Positions 11,233 to 27,247 of a DNA stretch of 64,000 nt are shown piece by piece. The notes under the pieces are model-generated. The model saw only the letters and a program-made list of their open reading frames with translations, searched no databases and had not been told where the DNA came from. The position numbers and the translations under genes were made by a program. The stretch comes from a virus. Every line of letters begins with the position of its first letter. The stretch's first letter is position 1. The stretch is taken from IMG/VR virus record IMGVR_UViG_3300025913_000034, positions 1-64,000 of that record; one strand, 5' to 3'.

Positions 11233-11235
11233 GAA

Positions 11236-11302
11236 CACGGTGAGGCCCGGCTCAGGCTGGCGGTCAAACCGTTCGCCAGCATCCTGACCAACGGCTACCG
11301 TG
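11236..11302 (+). ncRNA. Y-RNA-like element 1 (minimal type)
   Basis: A closed 67-base RNA. Its ends pair (11236-11241 with 11297-11302, six bases). Inside, CAGG (11253-11256) pairs with CCTG (11283-11286), and a six-base helix leads to a short loop near 11263-11273. The 3' strand, GCATCCTGACC, is close to the 3' Ro60-binding strand of animal Y RNAs (GCAC..TGAC). There is no tRNA-like module. Pairing was done by eye. Confidence 0.55.
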
Positions 11303-11308
11303 AGGGAC

Positions 11309-11384
11309 GTCCAGGTGCGACGGGCAACTCGGTTACTTCTTTCGCAAAGGTGCTAAACCGAACCGCCCATACGGATCTCTGGGC
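11309..11384 (+). ncRNA. Y-RNA-like element 2 (minimal type)
   Basis: A 76-base RNA whose ends pair (11309-11314 with 11379-11384). The 5' strand has the shared GGTGCGACGG (11314-11323), and the GGT pairs with ATC at 11375-11377. Above this, GGGC pairs with GCCC and CGGTT with AACCG, separated by a symmetrical AACT/AACC internal loop, and a small hairpin caps it. It carries the Ro60-binding helix without a tRNA-like domain. Confidence 0.6.
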
Positions 11385-11404
11385 ACTGAAAACAACAGAG
11401 CTTC

Positions 11405-11536
11405 CCCGCTGGGTGCGCAGGCCGTGGTTACTTCACCTGTTAAGTGAGTGTTGCCGGTTCGAGTCCGGCCGGGTTTCGGCCCGTAGCTTAATTGGCAAAG
11501 CGCTACGTCACCGCAGCCGTCTTGATCTCCGGCGGG
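11405..11536 (+). ncRNA. YrlA-like Y RNA 3 with a permuted tRNA-Asn-like module
   Basis: A 132-base RNA closed by 11405-11412 pairing with 11529-11536. The 5' Ro60 strand is GGTGCGCAGG (11412-11421) and the 3' strand contains TTGATC (11522-11527), with GGT:ATC pairing. Between them, in permuted order, are: an anticodon-like hairpin (stem 11432-11436/11444-11448, loop CTGTTAA with triplet GTT); a T arm (11453-11469, loop TTCGAGT); an acceptor-like helix closed by a TTCG tetraloop (11470-11483); and a D arm (11486-11501, loop AATTGGCA). D and T arms match actinobacterial tRNA-Asn closely. The acceptor has no free CCA end, as known for bacterial YrlA RNAs. Confidence 0.8.
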
Positions 11537-11549
11537 TCCAACTTCATAA

Positions 11550-11673
11550 GCACCTCCCGGTGCGCTGGTCGCGGGTACTTCTTGCAGAGGATCGGTTCGA
11601 ATCCGAGCGCCGCTTCGGCGGTGACGACGTATGGCTACGTCAAATCCGCTGCCAACCTGACCTCGGGAGGAGC
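11550..11673 (+). ncRNA. YrlA-like Y RNA 4 with a permuted tRNA-like module
   Basis: A 124-base RNA closed by 11550-11558 pairing with 11665-11673 (one mismatch). The 5' strand is GGTGCGCTGG (11559-11568) and the 3' strand contains TGACC (11658-11662); GGT pairs with ACC. The T arm, with loop TTCGAAT, is at about 11592-11606. The acceptor-like helix 11608-11613/11618-11623 is closed by TTCG (11614-11617), and the D arm is 11626-11641 (loop TATGGCTA). A loop-like CTTGCAG lies upstream (11581-11587), but its stem is weak. No free acceptor end. Confidence 0.75.
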
Positions 11674-11684
11674 ACACAGACTTC

Positions 11685-11832
11685 GGTCGCGCCCGGTGCG
11701 CAGGCGGCGAGTTCATCCTTTGGGAGGACGAGGTCGCCGGTTCAAATCCGGCCCACCCCGGGAAGCCGGGGCGGTGGCTCAGCCTGGTAGAGCGCGTAAA
11801 TTCTCGCAGCCGAGTTGACCTCGGGCGCGACC
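11685..11832 (+). ncRNA. YrlA-like Y RNA 5 with a permuted tRNA-Pro-like module
   Basis: A 148-base RNA closed by a perfect ten-base helix (11685-11694 with 11823-11832). The 5' Ro60 strand is GGTGCGCAGG (11695-11704) followed by GGCGAGTT; the 3' strand is CTCGC...GTTGACC (11803-11820). The inner module has an anticodon-like loop TTTGGGA (triplet TGG) near 11719-11725, a T arm 11736-11752 (loop TTCAAAT), and an acceptor helix 11753-11761/11766-11774 closed by GAAG with one mismatch. The D arm is 11777-11793 (loop AGCCTGGTA). Pieces correspond to tRNA-Pro(TGG) in circularly permuted order. This is the best-formed member of the array. Confidence 0.82.
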
Positions 11833-11840
11833 GTCTGATC

Positions 11841-11875
11841 AGGGCTCCTTCCGCACACCAGCAGGAAGGAGCCCT
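11841..11875 (+). promoter_or_regulatory. hairpin that masks the rsr ribosome binding site
   Basis: A perfect 12-base inverted repeat (11841-11852 with 11864-11875) with an 11-base loop. The right arm contains GGAAGGAG (11864-11871), the Shine-Dalgarno sequence of rsr, eight bases before its ATG. When the hairpin is closed the site is fully paired. It could also end or pause transcripts of the Y-RNA array. Control of Ro60 synthesis by opening this hairpin is an inference. Confidence 0.7.
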
Positions 11876-11879
11876 CTCC

Positions 11880-13469
11880 ATGTCGAAGTTCAACAAGCCG
11901 GTGGCGGTCGCGGCCCGCACGACCTCCCCGATCATCAGCACCACGCCGGCCACAACCCACCAGGGCGGCGCCGGCTTCGCGCGCGACGCGAAGTCGGAAC
12001 TCTTCCTCCTCGCCGTCACCAACATGGTCGGCGAGAACACCTTCTACGAGACCGCCAGCGCCCGCGACACCCGCTTCGAGGAACTCGTGCACCAGGTCGC
12101 GGTCCTCGACGGCGACTGGATGCGCCGCTTCATCCCCTGGCTGCGCGCCGAAGCCAACATGCGCTCGGCGTCCCTGGTGGCCGCAGCCGAAGCCGTCCAC
12201 GCGCGGCTCGCAGCCGGACTGGCCGGCGACAACCGCCAGATGATCGCCGCCGCATGCCAGCGCGCCGACGAGCCCGGCGAGATGCTCGGCTACTGGGACT
12301 CCCGCCACGGCCGCGCCATCCCGAAGCCGGTGAAGCGCGGCGTCGCCGACGCCGTACAGCGGCTCTACAACGGCAAGAGCCTGCTCAAGTACGACACCGA
12401 CACCCGCGGCCACCGCTTCGGCGACGTCATCGACCGCGTCCACCCGTCGCCGGCCCCGGACAAGCCGTGGCAGGGCGACCTGTTCCGCTACGCCCTCGAC
12501 CGCCGGCACGGCCGCGAGGACACACGCCTGCCGGAAGGCAACTTCACCCTGGCCGCGCGGCAGCGCCTGATGGACCTGCCGGTCGCGATGCGGCGCGAAT
12601 GGCTCACCAACATCCCGGACGTCGCCGAGAAGCTGCGCGAGGCCGGCATGACGTGGGAGTCGCTCGCCGGCTGGCTCCAAGGCCCGATGGACGCCGCAGC
12701 GTGGGAGGCGATCATCCCATCCATGGGCTACATGGCGCTGCTGCGGAACCTGCGGAACTTCGACCAGGCCGGAGTCTCCGACGAGGTGGCCGAGCAGGTC
12801 GCCGCACGCCTGGCCGACCCGGAGCAGGTGGCACGGTCCCGGCAGTTCCCCTTCCGGTTCTACGCCGCGCACAAGAACACCGGCTCGCTGCGGTGGGGCC
12901 ACGCGCTGGAGAAGGCACTGAAGTCGTCGCTGGCGAACGTGCCCGTGCTGCCCGGCCGCACGCTGGTGTTGGTGGATCAGTCGCCGTCGATGTTTCCCGG
13001 CTTCTACTACTCCACGCCGAACACCTCCGACATTGCCCTGGCGGAGAAGGCTGCGCTGTTCGGCTCGGCAATCGCGCTGCGCGCCGAGCACGCCGATCTC
13101 GTCGGCTACGGCTTCGCCAACTACAAGGTGCCGATCGGAAGGGGCGATGCGGTACTGGAGGTGATGAAGCGCTTCCACGTGGAAGACGGCACCGACACGC
13201 CGCGCGCGATGGTGGAGAACTTTGCCGGCCACGACCGGGTCCTGATCGTCACCGACGAACAGACCGCACACTCGCGGCTGCCCGGCCGCACCGTAGAGAA
13301 CGCGGTCCCGGCGAACGTGCCGGTCTACACCTGGAACCTGTCGGGCTACCGCCCGGGCCACGGGCCGTCCGGGACCGCGCGCAGGCACACCTTCGGTGGC
13401 CTCACCGACCAGGCGTTCCGCATGATCCCGCTCCTCGAGGCGGCCCAGTCCCAGTCGTGGCCGTTCTGA
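11880..13469 (+). CDS. rsr: Ro60/TROVE-domain RNA-binding protein (Rsr)
   Basis: Encodes 529 residues, about the length of bacterial Rsr and animal Ro60 (roughly 530). An N-terminal TROVE domain (helical repeats, e.g. DGDWMRRFIPWLRAEANMRSA) forms the RNA-binding ring. The C-terminal von Willebrand A-like domain carries an intact MIDAS start, DQSPS, at 366-370. Ro60 proteins bind Y RNAs on the ring surface and the ends of misfolded RNAs in its hole; in bacteria they can team with polynucleotide phosphorylase. Five Y-RNA-like elements lie directly upstream. The ATG at 11880 is set by the strong but hairpin-masked ribosome site. No RtcB ligase or phosphorylase gene is adjacent. A strong terminator follows. 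Confidence 0.93.
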   Translation: MSKFNKPVAVAARTTSPIISTTPATTHQGGAGFARDAKSELFLLAVTNMVGENTFYETASARDTRFEELVHQVAVLDGDWMRRFIPWLRAEANMRSASLVAAAEAVHARLAAGLAGDNRQMIAAACQRADEPGEMLGYWDSRHGRAIPKPVKRGVADAVQRLYNGKSLLKYDTDTRGHRFGDVIDRVHPSPAPDKPWQGDLFRYALDRRHGREDTRLPEGNFTLAARQRLMDLPVAMRREWLTNIPDVAEKLREAGMTWESLAGWLQGPMDAAAWEAIIPSMGYMALLRNLRNFDQAGVSDEVAEQVAARLADPEQVARSRQFPFRFYAAHKNTGSLRWGHALEKALKSSLANVPVLPGRTLVLVDQSPSMFPGFYYSTPNTSDIALAEKAALFGSAIALRAEHADLVGYGFANYKVPIGRGDAVLEVMKRFHVEDGTDTPRAMVENFAGHDRVLIVTDEQTAHSRLPGRTVENAVPANVPVYTWNLSGYRPGHGPSGTARRHTFGGLTDQAFRMIPLLEAAQSQSWPF

Positions 13470-20243: not shown

Positions 20244-20316
20244 TGGACCTGACCGGATTTGAACCGGCGACCTGCTGCCTGCCGGACAGCTGCTCTACCT
20301 GCTGAGCTACGGGCCC
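20244..20316 (-). tRNA. tRNA gene, apparent anticodon GGC
   Basis: A 73-base cloverleaf: acceptor GGGCCCG/CAGGTCC (one mismatch, one G-T), D arm GCTC/GAGC with loop AGCAGGTA, anticodon stem GCTGT/GCAGC with loop CCGGCAG, variable AGGTC, and T arm GCCGG/CCGGT with loop TTCAAAT. The loop gives anticodon GGC (alanine), but position 33 is C instead of the near-universal T. No encoded CCA. Seven bases separate it from the next tRNA, which it precedes on the same strand. Confidence 0.6.
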
Positions 20317-23358: not shown

Positions 23359-24051
23359 GTGGCCGAACTCGTCGTCATCGTGCCCTCGCGCGGGCGGCCG
23401 CGCAGTATCGCAGCCCTGGCGCAGGACTTCGCGGCAACCGCCGGCCCGGAAGCGCGGATGGTGGTCGCCGTCGACAACGACGATCCGGAGCTGGCGGCGT
23501 ACCAGAGGCTGCCGCTGTGGGACATGCCCCAGTTCCATCTGCGCGAAGGCGGGCGGCTGCGTCTCGGTGGGACGCTGAACGAGGTCGCCGCCGAATACGT
23601 CGGCTTCTACGACGTGATCGGCTTCATGGGCGACGACCACCGGCCCCGCACTGACGGCTGGGCGCTGGAAGTGCTGACGGAGATGAAGTGGCCCGGCGCC
23701 GGCATCGTCTACGGCAATGACCTGCTCCAACGCGACCAGCTGCCTACCGCCGTCTTCATGCGGCCCGCGATCATCAAGGCTCTGGGCTGGATGGCGCTCC
23801 CGGGCCTGGTGCACCTCTATATCGATAACGTCTGGCTCGAACTGGGCCGCGCGACCGGTCAGCTTCGATACCTGCCGAACGTGGTGATCGAGCACATGCA
23901 CCCGGCGGCCGGGAAAGCCCAGCGTGACGCCGGCTACGACGAGGTGAACGCTCCCGCGCTGGACGCCGCCGACAAGGTTGTGTTCGAGCGCTGGCGCACC
24001 GAGCAGCTCGCGGCGGACGTTGAGCGGCTGCGCGCGGCAGGGATCTGCTGA
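23359..24051 (+). CDS. glycosyltransferase-like protein (GT-A fold)
   Basis: Encodes 230 residues from a GTG at 23359 with GGGAG upstream; an earlier GTG at 23320 is in frame. It opens with VVIVPSRGRP, a GT-A-type nucleotide-sugar binding start, and has MGDDHRP in the place of the DxD metal-binding motif, followed by GIVYGNDL. Similar proteins occur in actinophages near tail genes. Sugar and acceptor are unknown. First of five coupled genes. Confidence 0.7.
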   Translation: MAELVVIVPSRGRPRSIAALAQDFAATAGPEARMVVAVDNDDPELAAYQRLPLWDMPQFHLREGGRLRLGGTLNEVAAEYVGFYDVIGFMGDDHRPRTDGWALEVLTEMKWPGAGIVYGNDLLQRDQLPTAVFMRPAIIKALGWMALPGLVHLYIDNVWLELGRATGQLRYLPNVVIEHMHPAAGKAQRDAGYDEVNAPALDAADKVVFERWRTEQLAADVERLRAAGIC

Positions 24052-24620
24052 TGCGCCGCCAGCTCCGCCCGTTCTACACGCCCGAGCAGCGCGCCGCCCT
24101 GTACTCCCGCACCTACGATCACACCCGCTGGCCGGACCACGTCGAACGCGTCGCGTACACCACCGCGGTGCTGGACCGGCTCGGCGCCGAGCTCCAGGCC
24201 GAGGAGCTCGGTGCAACGCTGAGCGTGGCGGATCTGTCCTGCGGCAACGGTGCGATCGTGAAGGGCAGCAGCCACCCCTGGGGGCGCCGCGTCCTGTCTG
24301 ACATTGCAGCTGGCGGGCCGCCCATCCAGGACGCGGTCGCCGCGCTGAAGCCGGTCGACGTCTTCGTGTGCTCCGAGACCCTTGAGCACGTCGAAGACCC
24401 GGACGCGCTGCTCGCCGCGATCCGCGGCAAGGCTCGCGCGCTGCTGCTGACGACCCCGGCCGGCGAGGCCGACGACTCCAACCCCGAGCACTACTGGCCC
24501 TGGAACGTCGAGGACGTCGCCGACATGCTCAAGCGCGCCGGCTGGGACGACCGCATCGTCACCACCTTCACCCCGCGGTCGGTGTCTCTCTACACCTTCC
24601 AGATTTGGACGTGCCGCTGA
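24051..24620 (+). CDS. SAM-dependent methyltransferase
   Basis: Encodes 189 residues, coupled to the glycosyltransferase gene. It has a motif-I-like VADLSCGNGAIV, a motif-II-like VLSDIAAG, and VFVCSETLEHVEDPDALL, the post-motif typical of Methyltransf_11/23-type small-molecule methylases. In this cassette it probably methylates a sugar or nucleotide-sugar. Confidence 0.75.
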   Translation: MRRQLRPFYTPEQRAALYSRTYDHTRWPDHVERVAYTTAVLDRLGAELQAEELGATLSVADLSCGNGAIVKGSSHPWGRRVLSDIAAGGPPIQDAVAALKPVDVFVCSETLEHVEDPDALLAAIRGKARALLLTTPAGEADDSNPEHYWPWNVEDVADMLKRAGWDDRIVTTFTPRSVSLYTFQIWTCR

Positions 24621-25561
24621 TGCGTGTTCTGGTCACCGGCTCTGCCGGCTTCGTGGGACGTCATATGGTCAAGGCGTTCGCCGCGCGCGGGGACTCGGTG
24701 TTCGGGATCGACGTGGTCGACGAGCCGAACGCCGAATACTCGCTGGTTATGGACGCCCTGGACTACTTCCGGCGGCCGTGGTCCGGGCCCGGTTTCGATC
24801 TGGCGGTGCATTGCGCGGCGACGATCGGCGGCCGCGCCGGCATCGACGGTTCGCCGCTGGCGGTGGCCACGAACGCGGCACTGGACGCCTGGTTCTTCCG
24901 GTGGCTGGAACAGGCGCAGGTGCCGCAGGCGGTGTACTTCTCCAGCTCGGCCGCATACCCGGTGGCCCTACAGAACGACATCGCAGCGGTGCAGGAGCTT
25001 CACGAGAGCCGCATTCGGCCTGACCTTCCCACTATCGGCCGCCCGGACGCGACCTATGGCTGGACGAAGTTGTTCGGCGAGGTGCTGGCGCAGACAGCCC
25101 GCTCGCGCGGCCAGCAGGTGCTGGTGGTGCGTCCGTTCTCCGGCTACGGCTCCGACCAGAGCAGCGACTACCCGTTCCCGGCGCTTCTTCGGCGTGTCCT
25201 GGACTCCAAGCCGGGCGATCACGTCGAGGTGTGGGGGAACCCGGAGTCGGCCCGCGACTGGATCCACATCGACGACATCGTTGGCGCGGTCCTGGCGTTG
25301 CTGGCCGCCGGCGAATCGGGCCCGGTGAACCTCGGGACAGGCCGCGCAACCACCTTCCGCGCCCTGGTCGGGGAGATGGCGGGAGCCGCGTTCGGCTGGC
25401 CGCATCAGCGCCACGTGCGCAGCGTCAGCGGCCAGCCAGAAGGCGTCCTGTGGCGCGTCGCCGACGCGTCGATGATGGAGCGGTTCTACAAGCCCCAGGT
25501 CCCGCTGCACGAGGGTATCCAGCGGGCGATCGATGCGGCGCGGGCAGGCGCCGATGCCTGA
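24620..25561 (+). CDS. NAD-dependent epimerase/dehydratase (extended SDR)
   Basis: Encodes 313 residues. An N-terminal TGSAGFVG binds NAD(P). A serine in FSSSAAYP and YGWTK supply the Ser-Tyr-Lys catalytic set. RDWIHIDDIVGAVLALL and NLGTG are standard for nucleotide-sugar epimerases such as GalE/WcaG-like enzymes. It would make an unusual nucleotide-sugar for the neighbouring transferases. Confidence 0.85.
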   Translation: MRVLVTGSAGFVGRHMVKAFAARGDSVFGIDVVDEPNAEYSLVMDALDYFRRPWSGPGFDLAVHCAATIGGRAGIDGSPLAVATNAALDAWFFRWLEQAQVPQAVYFSSSAAYPVALQNDIAAVQELHESRIRPDLPTIGRPDATYGWTKLFGEVLAQTARSRGQQVLVVRPFSGYGSDQSSDYPFPALLRRVLDSKPGDHVEVWGNPESARDWIHIDDIVGAVLALLAAGESGPVNLGTGRATTFRALVGEMAGAAFGWPHQRHVRSVSGQPEGVLWRVADASMMERFYKPQVPLHEGIQRAIDAARAGADA

Positions 25562-26192
25562 CCGACTGTCGGTTGCGGTGGTGGTGGCGACGATCCCCGG
25601 CCGCGAGGAGCTCCTCGAGGAGGCGCTGGCATCGATCGCGGCCCAGCACCGGCAACCAGAGCAGGTGGTGGTCGAGTACGACCCGAACCGCACCGGGGCG
25701 GCGGCGACACGGAACCGGGCGCTGGCCCAGGTCGATACGGACCTGGTGGCGTGGCTCGACGACGACGACCTGCTCCTGCGGAACCACATCGGGGCGCTGG
25801 CGCGGGTGCTCGAGCACGAGCCGGACGTCGGGCTGGTGTATCCGGCGCCGCGCGCGACCGGCCCGGAGCCGACAGCGGTGACAGTCAACGGCGTGTGGCG
25901 CAAGCCGTGGGGTGTCGAGTTCGGCCCCGAACAGGCCATGCACCTGCGCGAACGCGGCTCTTTCATCCCCATCACACACATGGTCCGCACCGCGGCGGTG
26001 CGCGCGGTCGGCGGGTTCCCCGAAGGCGTGACGCTGCCGGACGGCCGGTACCGCGGTGAGGATGAGGCACTACTGATCGCGCTCCTGGAATCCGGCATCT
26101 GGTTCCGGCACCTGAACGTAACCACGTGGGTGTGGCGGGTCTGGGACGGTCACACCGCCGGCAAGGCCGCATCGGCGCGGGCGGCGCGGTGA
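25554..26192 (+). CDS. family 2 glycosyltransferase
   Basis: Encodes 212 residues. VVVATIPGREELLEEALASI opens a GT2 fold, TGAAATRNRAL lies at the nucleotide site and WLDDDDLLL contains the DxD metal ligand. YRGEDEALL matches the ED catalytic-base region. The ATG overlaps the epimerase gene by eight bases. Donor and acceptor not predictable. Confidence 0.8.
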   Translation: MPDRLSVAVVVATIPGREELLEEALASIAAQHRQPEQVVVEYDPNRTGAAATRNRALAQVDTDLVAWLDDDDLLLRNHIGALARVLEHEPDVGLVYPAPRATGPEPTAVTVNGVWRKPWGVEFGPEQAMHLRERGSFIPITHMVRTAAVRAVGGFPEGVTLPDGRYRGEDEALLIALLESGIWFRHLNVTTWVWRVWDGHTAGKAASARAAR

Positions 26193-27247
26193 GCAACGAC
26201 CAGGCCCCAGCGCGGCTGCCGCGCGTATTCGGGTGGCTCGCCGACATCCAGGGCTGCGGATACTGGCGCATCATGATCCCGCTGGCTGAGCTTCAGCGAC
26301 GAGGAATCGCAGACACCGCCTACAACCTGCGGATGCACTCGGAGTTCTGCGACGGCAGCCACCCCGACAACTTGAAGGTCCGCGGCGACGGCGACCCCAT
26401 CATCATGATCGGGCAGCGGCTGTGTGAACCCACCCCGTCGGCGACGTGGCGCAAGTTCGCAGACCACCCGCGGTTCCGGCTCGTGCTGGACCTGGACGAC
26501 GACCTACTGAACATCGACCCCGCGAACCGGCTCGCGCACCAGGCGTTCTCCGACCCGGACCGGCGCCGCCACCTCATCGAGAACATGGCCATCGCGCACC
26601 TGGTGACCGTGTCCACCGAGCCGCTGGCCGAGCAGGTGAGCCGGTACAACCCGAACGTGGCGGTGGTCCCGAACTTCATCGACGCGGCCGCCCTGACCTA
26701 CCCCAGGCCCTCATTCGCCGGGCCCGCTGTCGGCTGGGCCGGGTCGTCGACGCACGCCGCCGACTTCGACGCGGCACGGCCGGCGCTTCGCCGGTTCTAC
26801 CGCGACAACCCGCGGGTGTGGTGGTCCTCCTTCGGCCACAACTACGGCCTGACCACCGGCGCGACACGGCTAAGGCACGCCCGCTGGCAGGACATCGTGA
26901 ACAGCCCGAACCGCTACTACGAGAACTTCACCTGGGACATCGGGATCGCGCCGCTTGCGGACACCCTGTTCAACGCCTCGAAGTCGCACCTGAAAGCGCT
27001 GGAGTACGCCTCGATGGGGATTCCGGCGGTCGCCTCGAACCTGGCGCCGTACCGCGACATCGTCGTCGACGGCGTGACCGGGTTCCTGGCCTCCAAGCCG
27101 GGCCAGTGGGCTGATGCGCTGACGCTGCTGGCGCGGGACGAGGATCTGCGCCGCACCATGGGCGAGGCGGCCCGTCGGTGGGCTGCCGAGTGGACCATCC
27201 AGGGCAACATCGGCCGCTGGGTCGAGGTGCTGTCGACGCTGACATAG
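26189..27247 (+). CDS. family 4-like glycosyltransferase
   Basis: Encodes 352 residues from a GTG overlapping the previous stop. GT-B architecture: LVLDLDDDLLNID, then VSTEPLAEQV, VVPNFID and a C-terminal SHLKALEYASMGIPAVASN with E-x7-E-type sugar-nucleotide contact, typical of GT4. The last gene of the cassette, followed by a strong terminator that it shares with the convergent virion operon. Confidence 0.82.
   Translation: MSNDQAPARLPRVFGWLADIQGCGYWRIMIPLAELQRRGIADTAYNLRMHSEFCDGSHPDNLKVRGDGDPIIMIGQRLCEPTPSATWRKFADHPRFRLVLDLDDDLLNIDPANRLAHQAFSDPDRRRHLIENMAIAHLVTVSTEPLAEQVSRYNPNVAVVPNFIDAAALTYPRPSFAGPAVGWAGSSTHAADFDAARPALRRFYRDNPRVWWSSFGHNYGLTTGATRLRHARWQDIVNSPNRYYENFTWDIGIAPLADTLFNASKSHLKALEYASMGIPAVASNLAPYRDIVVDGVTGFLASKPGQWADALTLLARDEDLRRTMGEAARRWAAEWTIQGNIGRWVEVLSTLT

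Follow-up and report, generated by a model that had tools for sequence, protein, structure and literature searches.

The window analysed here is a stretch of 64,000 nucleotides that covers nearly the whole of virus record IMGVR_UViG_3300025913_000034 (64,862 bases). It contains genes for a large terminase, portal, capsid, tape measure and endolysin together with a tyrosine integrase, which identify it as a temperate siphophage; its terminase is most like those of Streptomyces phages, Yara among them (50% identity). On the plus strand four tandem Y RNAs are followed by an intact Ro60 (Rsr) gene, with 48 nt between the end of the array and the ATG at 11880 as the original prediction had stated, and this is very probably a phage Ro60/Y-RNA locus with four Y RNAs (Table 1). 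The only tRNA in the window is a single tRNA-Ala (GGC) at 20244-20316 on the minus strand, and a run of sugar-metabolism genes (methyltransferase-like, epimerase and two glycosyltransferases) lies at 24051-27247 on the plus strand.

Table 1. Features of the Ro60/Y-RNA locus in the window, and Y RNAs annotated as tRNAs in four phage records (positions are those of the named locus)
Feature	Position	Strand	Details
Element 1	11236-11302	+	Strong hairpin, unsupported as a Y RNA; 1-4 bits with R1/R2; z -3.6; overlaps -10 box
-10 box TACCGT	11296-11301	+	Single predicted array promoter; TANNNT 18 nt before GGTGCG of element 2
Y RNA 1 (element 2)	11306-11386	+	Short class; R2 34.4 bits, E 2e-4 (272 kb), 8.8e-7 (local search)
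Y RNA 2 (element 3)	11404-11538	+	YrlA-type; R1 87.8 bits, E 7e-20; Rfam YrlA 37.3 bits, E 2e-6
Y RNA 3 (element 4)	11551-11673	+	Intermediate class; R1 56.7 bits, R2 64.5 bits
Y RNA 4 (element 5)	11687-11831	+	YrlA-type; R1 87.9 bits, E 6e-20; Rfam YrlA 36.6 bits, E 3e-6
12-bp hairpin	11841-11875	+	3' arm holds Ro60 Shine-Dalgarno AAGGAG; z -6.7, 0/200 shuffles
Ro60/Rsr gene	11880-13469	+	529 aa, TROVE + vWA; Pfam TROVE 67.6 bits; AlphaFold pLDDT 88.7
Y RNA of VanLee	L103 2620-2762		Annotated as tRNA Arg-tct
Y RNA of GiJojo	L098 2762-2913		Annotated as tRNA Arg-cct
Y RNA of Alone3	L101 2683-2833		Annotated as tRNA Ser-gct
Y RNA of Frankenweenie	L104 2759-2921		Annotated as tRNA Pro-tgg

Chromosomal bacterial Ro60 loci were fetched using the window's Ro60 protein, and elements were cut out of them by the motif GGTGCG...GAYC together with its pairing flanks and aligned as A1 (YrlA-type) and A2 (short). 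The covariance models R1 and R2 comprise 26 and 22 chromosomal elements respectively and include no window sequence; their search space was 272 kb, a separate local search was also run and element 1 was scored with filters off. The original prediction had placed five consecutive elements here, whose numbering is kept in this account, and R1 and R2 match elements 2-5 where they had been drawn, leaving four Y RNAs rather than five. The motif GGTGCG(A/C)NGG that was said to be shared by four elements is found four times, and GATC or GACC is read in the 3' strands as had been described. The pair GGTGCGNNGG/GAYCTC is the conserved Ro60-binding motif of the long terminal stem.

Element 1 is ruled out as a Y RNA by its chance-level scores with the two models, by the absence of GGTGCG and by the -10 box inside it. 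That it could be a divergent fifth member of the array was suggested by the presence of TGACC and is consistent with its folding better than shuffled sequences, but this is very improbable given also that no match to element 1 was found in phages and that the -10 box it holds marks the first Y RNA in relatives. Element 1 lies just after the stop codon of the preceding gene and the -10 box lies in its 3' strand. With the box placed here the Y RNAs start with element 2, so that element 1 lies upstream of them and probably comprises the 3' end or terminator of the upstream gene and the promoter region.

The -10 box came from a comparison of relatives, in which TANNNT was found exactly 18 nt 5' of GGTGCG in 29 of 73 non-redundant first elements and in none of 70 later elements. 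In the window and in the viral contigs L002 and L005 the sequence at this position is identical (TACCGT). No conserved -35 box was found in the same comparison, and a scan for consensus promoters found nothing. The arrangement suggests co-transcription of the array from one promoter followed by processing. To judge from the anatomy of the locus, transcription would probably continue into Ro60, and the transcript would be cut at the linkers to give separate Y RNAs.

A search with the Rfam models, which had been proposed as a check, gave YrlA (RF02553) matches inside elements 3 and 5, both under the gathering score of 69 bits. The chromosomal arrays L062 and L025 likewise fall below this score, so that the Rfam model, rather than the locus, is the likely limit. 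Rfam matches to twister-sister and mascRNA within the window's array are also below the gathering score and are explained by tRNA-like parts. Across the seven loci scanned, every actinobacterial Y RNA fell short of the Rfam YrlA cut-off, and in four phage records Y RNAs with R1 scores of 44-86 bits are labelled as tRNAs, labels with which ARAGORN agrees (Table 1). Actinobacterial Y RNAs are therefore probably under-annotated, and the R1 and R2 models recover Y RNAs that the Rfam cut-off misses. At L008 2595-2740 the Rfam tRNA model (46.5 bits) matches a composite of two adjacent Y RNAs (2517-2656 and 2667-2809), a result that could mislead automatic annotation.

The long YrlA type is represented by elements 3 and 5, whose long stem encloses a circularly permuted tRNA-like module made up of a T arm, an acceptor-like hairpin and a D arm. 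In element 3 the T arm (11453-11469) is followed by the acceptor-like hairpin and then by the D arm (11483-11501); the T and D arms of element 5 are at 11736-11752 and 11777-11793. The intermediate element 4 retains the T arm and acceptor-like hairpin with a plain hairpin in place of the D arm, and the short element 2 has the Ro60-binding stem without the tRNA mimic. The T and D arm motifs, the calling of some homologous Y RNAs as tRNAs by ARAGORN and by phage annotators, and the retention of Ro60 within tRNA clusters in other phages might all be expected if the tRNA-like elements were decayed phage tRNA genes. Such an origin is scarcely credible, however, and is refuted by the permuted arm order, in which the T arm precedes the D arm, and by the covariance model scores. 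The array does not show the full features of a tRNA (D, anticodon and T arms in order with a 7-bp acceptor stem), the anticodon arm being absent, and neither ARAGORN nor Rfam finds a tRNA in it; the outer stem and 3' motif, moreover, are conserved and covary.

Pairing is seen in 95.4% of the cells of host elements, against 84.2% after shuffling, and two-sided changes in 79 cells against 18.5, whilst the viral elements, in an alignment fitted to the model, show two-sided changes in 341 cells against 108.5. Covariance in homologous loci, on which the original prediction had in part been staked, is thus present, and the signal is lost once the partners are slid by 1-3 columns. It sits in the outer stem and second helix, in the acceptor-like hairpin and in both arms (D and T). 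The exchange of ACC for ATC between elements, which had been read as pairing kept while sequence changes, is only a one-sided change from G-C to G-U, the real two-sided covariation being elsewhere in the stems and arms. As the conserved parts are the Ro60-binding stem and the tRNA mimic, with no sign of base-pairing targets, a role as adapter or gate is indicated and the proposed role as 'guide' is unsupported. The proposal of a phage Ro60 with several distinct RNAs holds to the extent of four RNAs in three structural classes.

The class order short, YrlA, intermediate, YrlA is common to the window, the Actinomadura chromosomes L046 and L076 and the viral contig L002. The window and L002 are nearly identical in the linker, in element 4 and in the sequence that flanks element 5 on its 5' side; an exact-pattern scan of viral sequences for element 4 gave the L002 contig alone, and a direct blastn of element 4 against phages gave no match. 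The Ro60 of L002 is placed elsewhere in the Ro60 tree than that of the window. Near-identity of the RNAs despite this separate placement fits an exchange of RNA cassettes, although it may instead reflect strong constraint on the RNA sequence.

Copy number, for which a comparison of related phages had been suggested, does vary, from one to six Y RNAs in 26 distinct viral loci. All 80 actinobacterial chromosomal Ro60 loci examined have between one and four (one in 8 loci, two in 22, three in 44 and four in 6). These tallies count R1/R2 matches only, so divergent copies may be missed, and the sampled loci are mostly of one lineage (Streptomyces and relatives). The viral maximum of six is found in L017, as six tandem matches before Ro60 (1937-2931), and in L007, where tRNAs are interleaved with the Y RNAs (1633-2929). 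In L007 the Y RNA at 2197-2347 abuts a tRNA-Ile (2348-2423), which suggests that tRNA processing could release the 3' end of that Y RNA. Arthrobacter phage Atuin has three Y RNA matches downstream of Ro60, beside a tRNA cluster (L102 4899-5331). In JustBecause and Kela (L105/L109 1907-2900) the Y RNAs and Ro60 are separated by a gene annotated as an RNA ligase, a placement that is reminiscent of Ro60 in RNA-repair operons.

The hairpin between the array and Ro60 is the strongest fold in the region, and the unpaired probability of the Shine-Dalgarno (SD) sequence that it contains is 0.0004. The mean SD unpaired probability is 0.18 in 80 host Ro60 genes as against 0.41 in 400 control genes (p 2e-15, which is optimistic because the host Ro60 genes are related). 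The viral loci taken together have a mean of 0.41, which means that an SD-burying hairpin is missing from many phages. It is possible that the hairpin is a terminator or a translational lock on Ro60; it would probably end most array transcripts or hold Ro60 translation low. With this fold in front of the gene, and the array directly 5' of Ro60 behind a single promoter, the array could be mainly a cis-regulatory leader to which Ro60 binds to regulate itself. This is distinctly unlikely in view of the downstream Y RNAs of Atuin and the intervening ligase gene of JustBecause and Kela, and cis control needs no tRNA-mimic modules.

The gene that follows is complete, as had been claimed, and its MIDAS (DxSxS, T, D) is intact, with D366, S368, S370, T438 and D459 invariant in 31 homologous sequences. 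Foldseek searches with the predicted fold matched vertebrate Ro60 with RNA (1yvp; TM 0.74, E 4e-14), Deinococcus radiodurans Rsr (2nvo; TM 0.63, E 5e-12) and the Ro60 of Thermus phage phiLo (9l5y; TM 0.59, E 8e-15), and the modelled protein thus has the Ro60 ring fold. In the Ro60 tree phage and host sequences are intermixed, with at least six changes forced by well-supported branches, and the window's Ro60 pairs with that of the viral contig L005, near Streptomyces sequences.

In the particle that these parts would form, the outer stem of each Y RNA would bind the outside of the Ro60 ring. Tethering of PNPase to Ro60 by a Y RNA has been described in the Ro60-Y RNA-PNPase machine (PMC8394870, PMC7790460). 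As in Deinococcus RYPER, the tRNA-like modules of the YrlA-type RNAs may bring in a partner that recognises tRNA, for which host PNPase is the likeliest candidate, although for the PNPase step itself the chances appear about even. A non-exhaustive search identified no PNPase or RNA-repair genes in the window, so the partner would have to be supplied by the host. Structured or damaged RNA would then be degraded or sorted during infection or lysogeny, with the short and intermediate Y RNAs serving either to gate Ro60 or as adapters that lack full tRNA mimicry. The likely function would be that of a Ro60/Y-RNA particle docking PNPase or another tRNA-binding partner.

The same tRNA mimicry could serve another end. 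It has been suggested that YrlA could competitively inhibit an anticodon nuclease (PMC7790460), and phage Ro60 often adjoins tRNA genes, with an RNA ligase in JustBecause and Kela, so the Y RNAs might be decoys titrating anticodon nucleases of host or rival, or tRNA-modifying enzymes, with Ro60 merely stabilising them. We consider this unlikely, since two of the four RNAs are without a full tRNA mimic, none has an anticodon arm and bacterial chromosomes carry the same arrays. The docking particle can be extended to a wider proposal, which we put forward with considerable doubt: that phages of actinobacteria build and exchange cassettes of Y RNAs of several classes, with up to six RNAs at one locus, behind one promoter and with a translational lock on Ro60, and that a single Ro60 ring is so provided with a set of interchangeable adapters by which host enzymes of RNA decay or tRNA handling are redirected in the course of infection.

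To our knowledge PNPase tethering has been shown in Deinococcus only, and knowledge of what bacterial Y RNAs do comes largely from Deinococcus and Salmonella, with still less from phages. The present locus, which is compact and combines four Y RNAs of three classes with a clear predicted promoter and a Ro60 gene, offers a tractable test bed for the binding partners of each class. Bacterial Y RNAs are tRNA-mimicking adapter RNAs, and YrlA (RF02553) is found with Rsr, as in the rsr-yrlBA operon (Deinococcus, Salmonella, Mycobacterium). In common with bacterial YrlA/Rsr systems the window has the Ro60-binding stem, the permuted tRNA-like module, an adjoining Ro60 and several Y RNAs; it differs in having four RNAs in three classes, Rfam scores below the gathering score and no rtcBA that was found.

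The novelty implied by the original prediction was overstated, as tandem arrays are usual in actinobacterial chromosomes (72 of the 80 loci have two to four copies) and phage Ro60 and phage Y RNAs have been described before. Bioinformatic searches have identified Y RNAs in diverse bacteria and in mycobacteriophages (Chen et al. 2014, as cited in PMC12282133), and Y RNAs have been proposed close to an Rsr homologue carried by a Listeria phage (PMC12282133). The routine annotation of Ro60 in actinobacteriophages is 'Ro-like RNA binding protein', and the structure of one phage Ro60, that of phiLo, has been solved (PDB 9l5y). What this analysis adds is the one predicted promoter at a fixed distance from the first Y RNA, the SD-burying hairpin, the Y RNAs missed by Rfam and the four Y RNAs labelled as tRNAs. 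The window resembles the arrays of Streptomyces and Actinomadura (L018-L097) in class order, in the GGTGCGNAGG and GATCTC motifs, in its linkers, in the -10 box at -18 and in the hairpin before the ATG; these chromosomes have one to four copies by R1/R2, the window four and viral loci up to six. With the Ro60/TROVE genes of actinobacteriophages, the phiLo Ro60 and the Y RNAs of mycobacteriophages it shares a phage-encoded Ro60 with Y RNAs nearby. In the known phage isolates examined two or three Y RNAs are detected, often in tRNA clusters, whereas the array of the window is compact and host-like.
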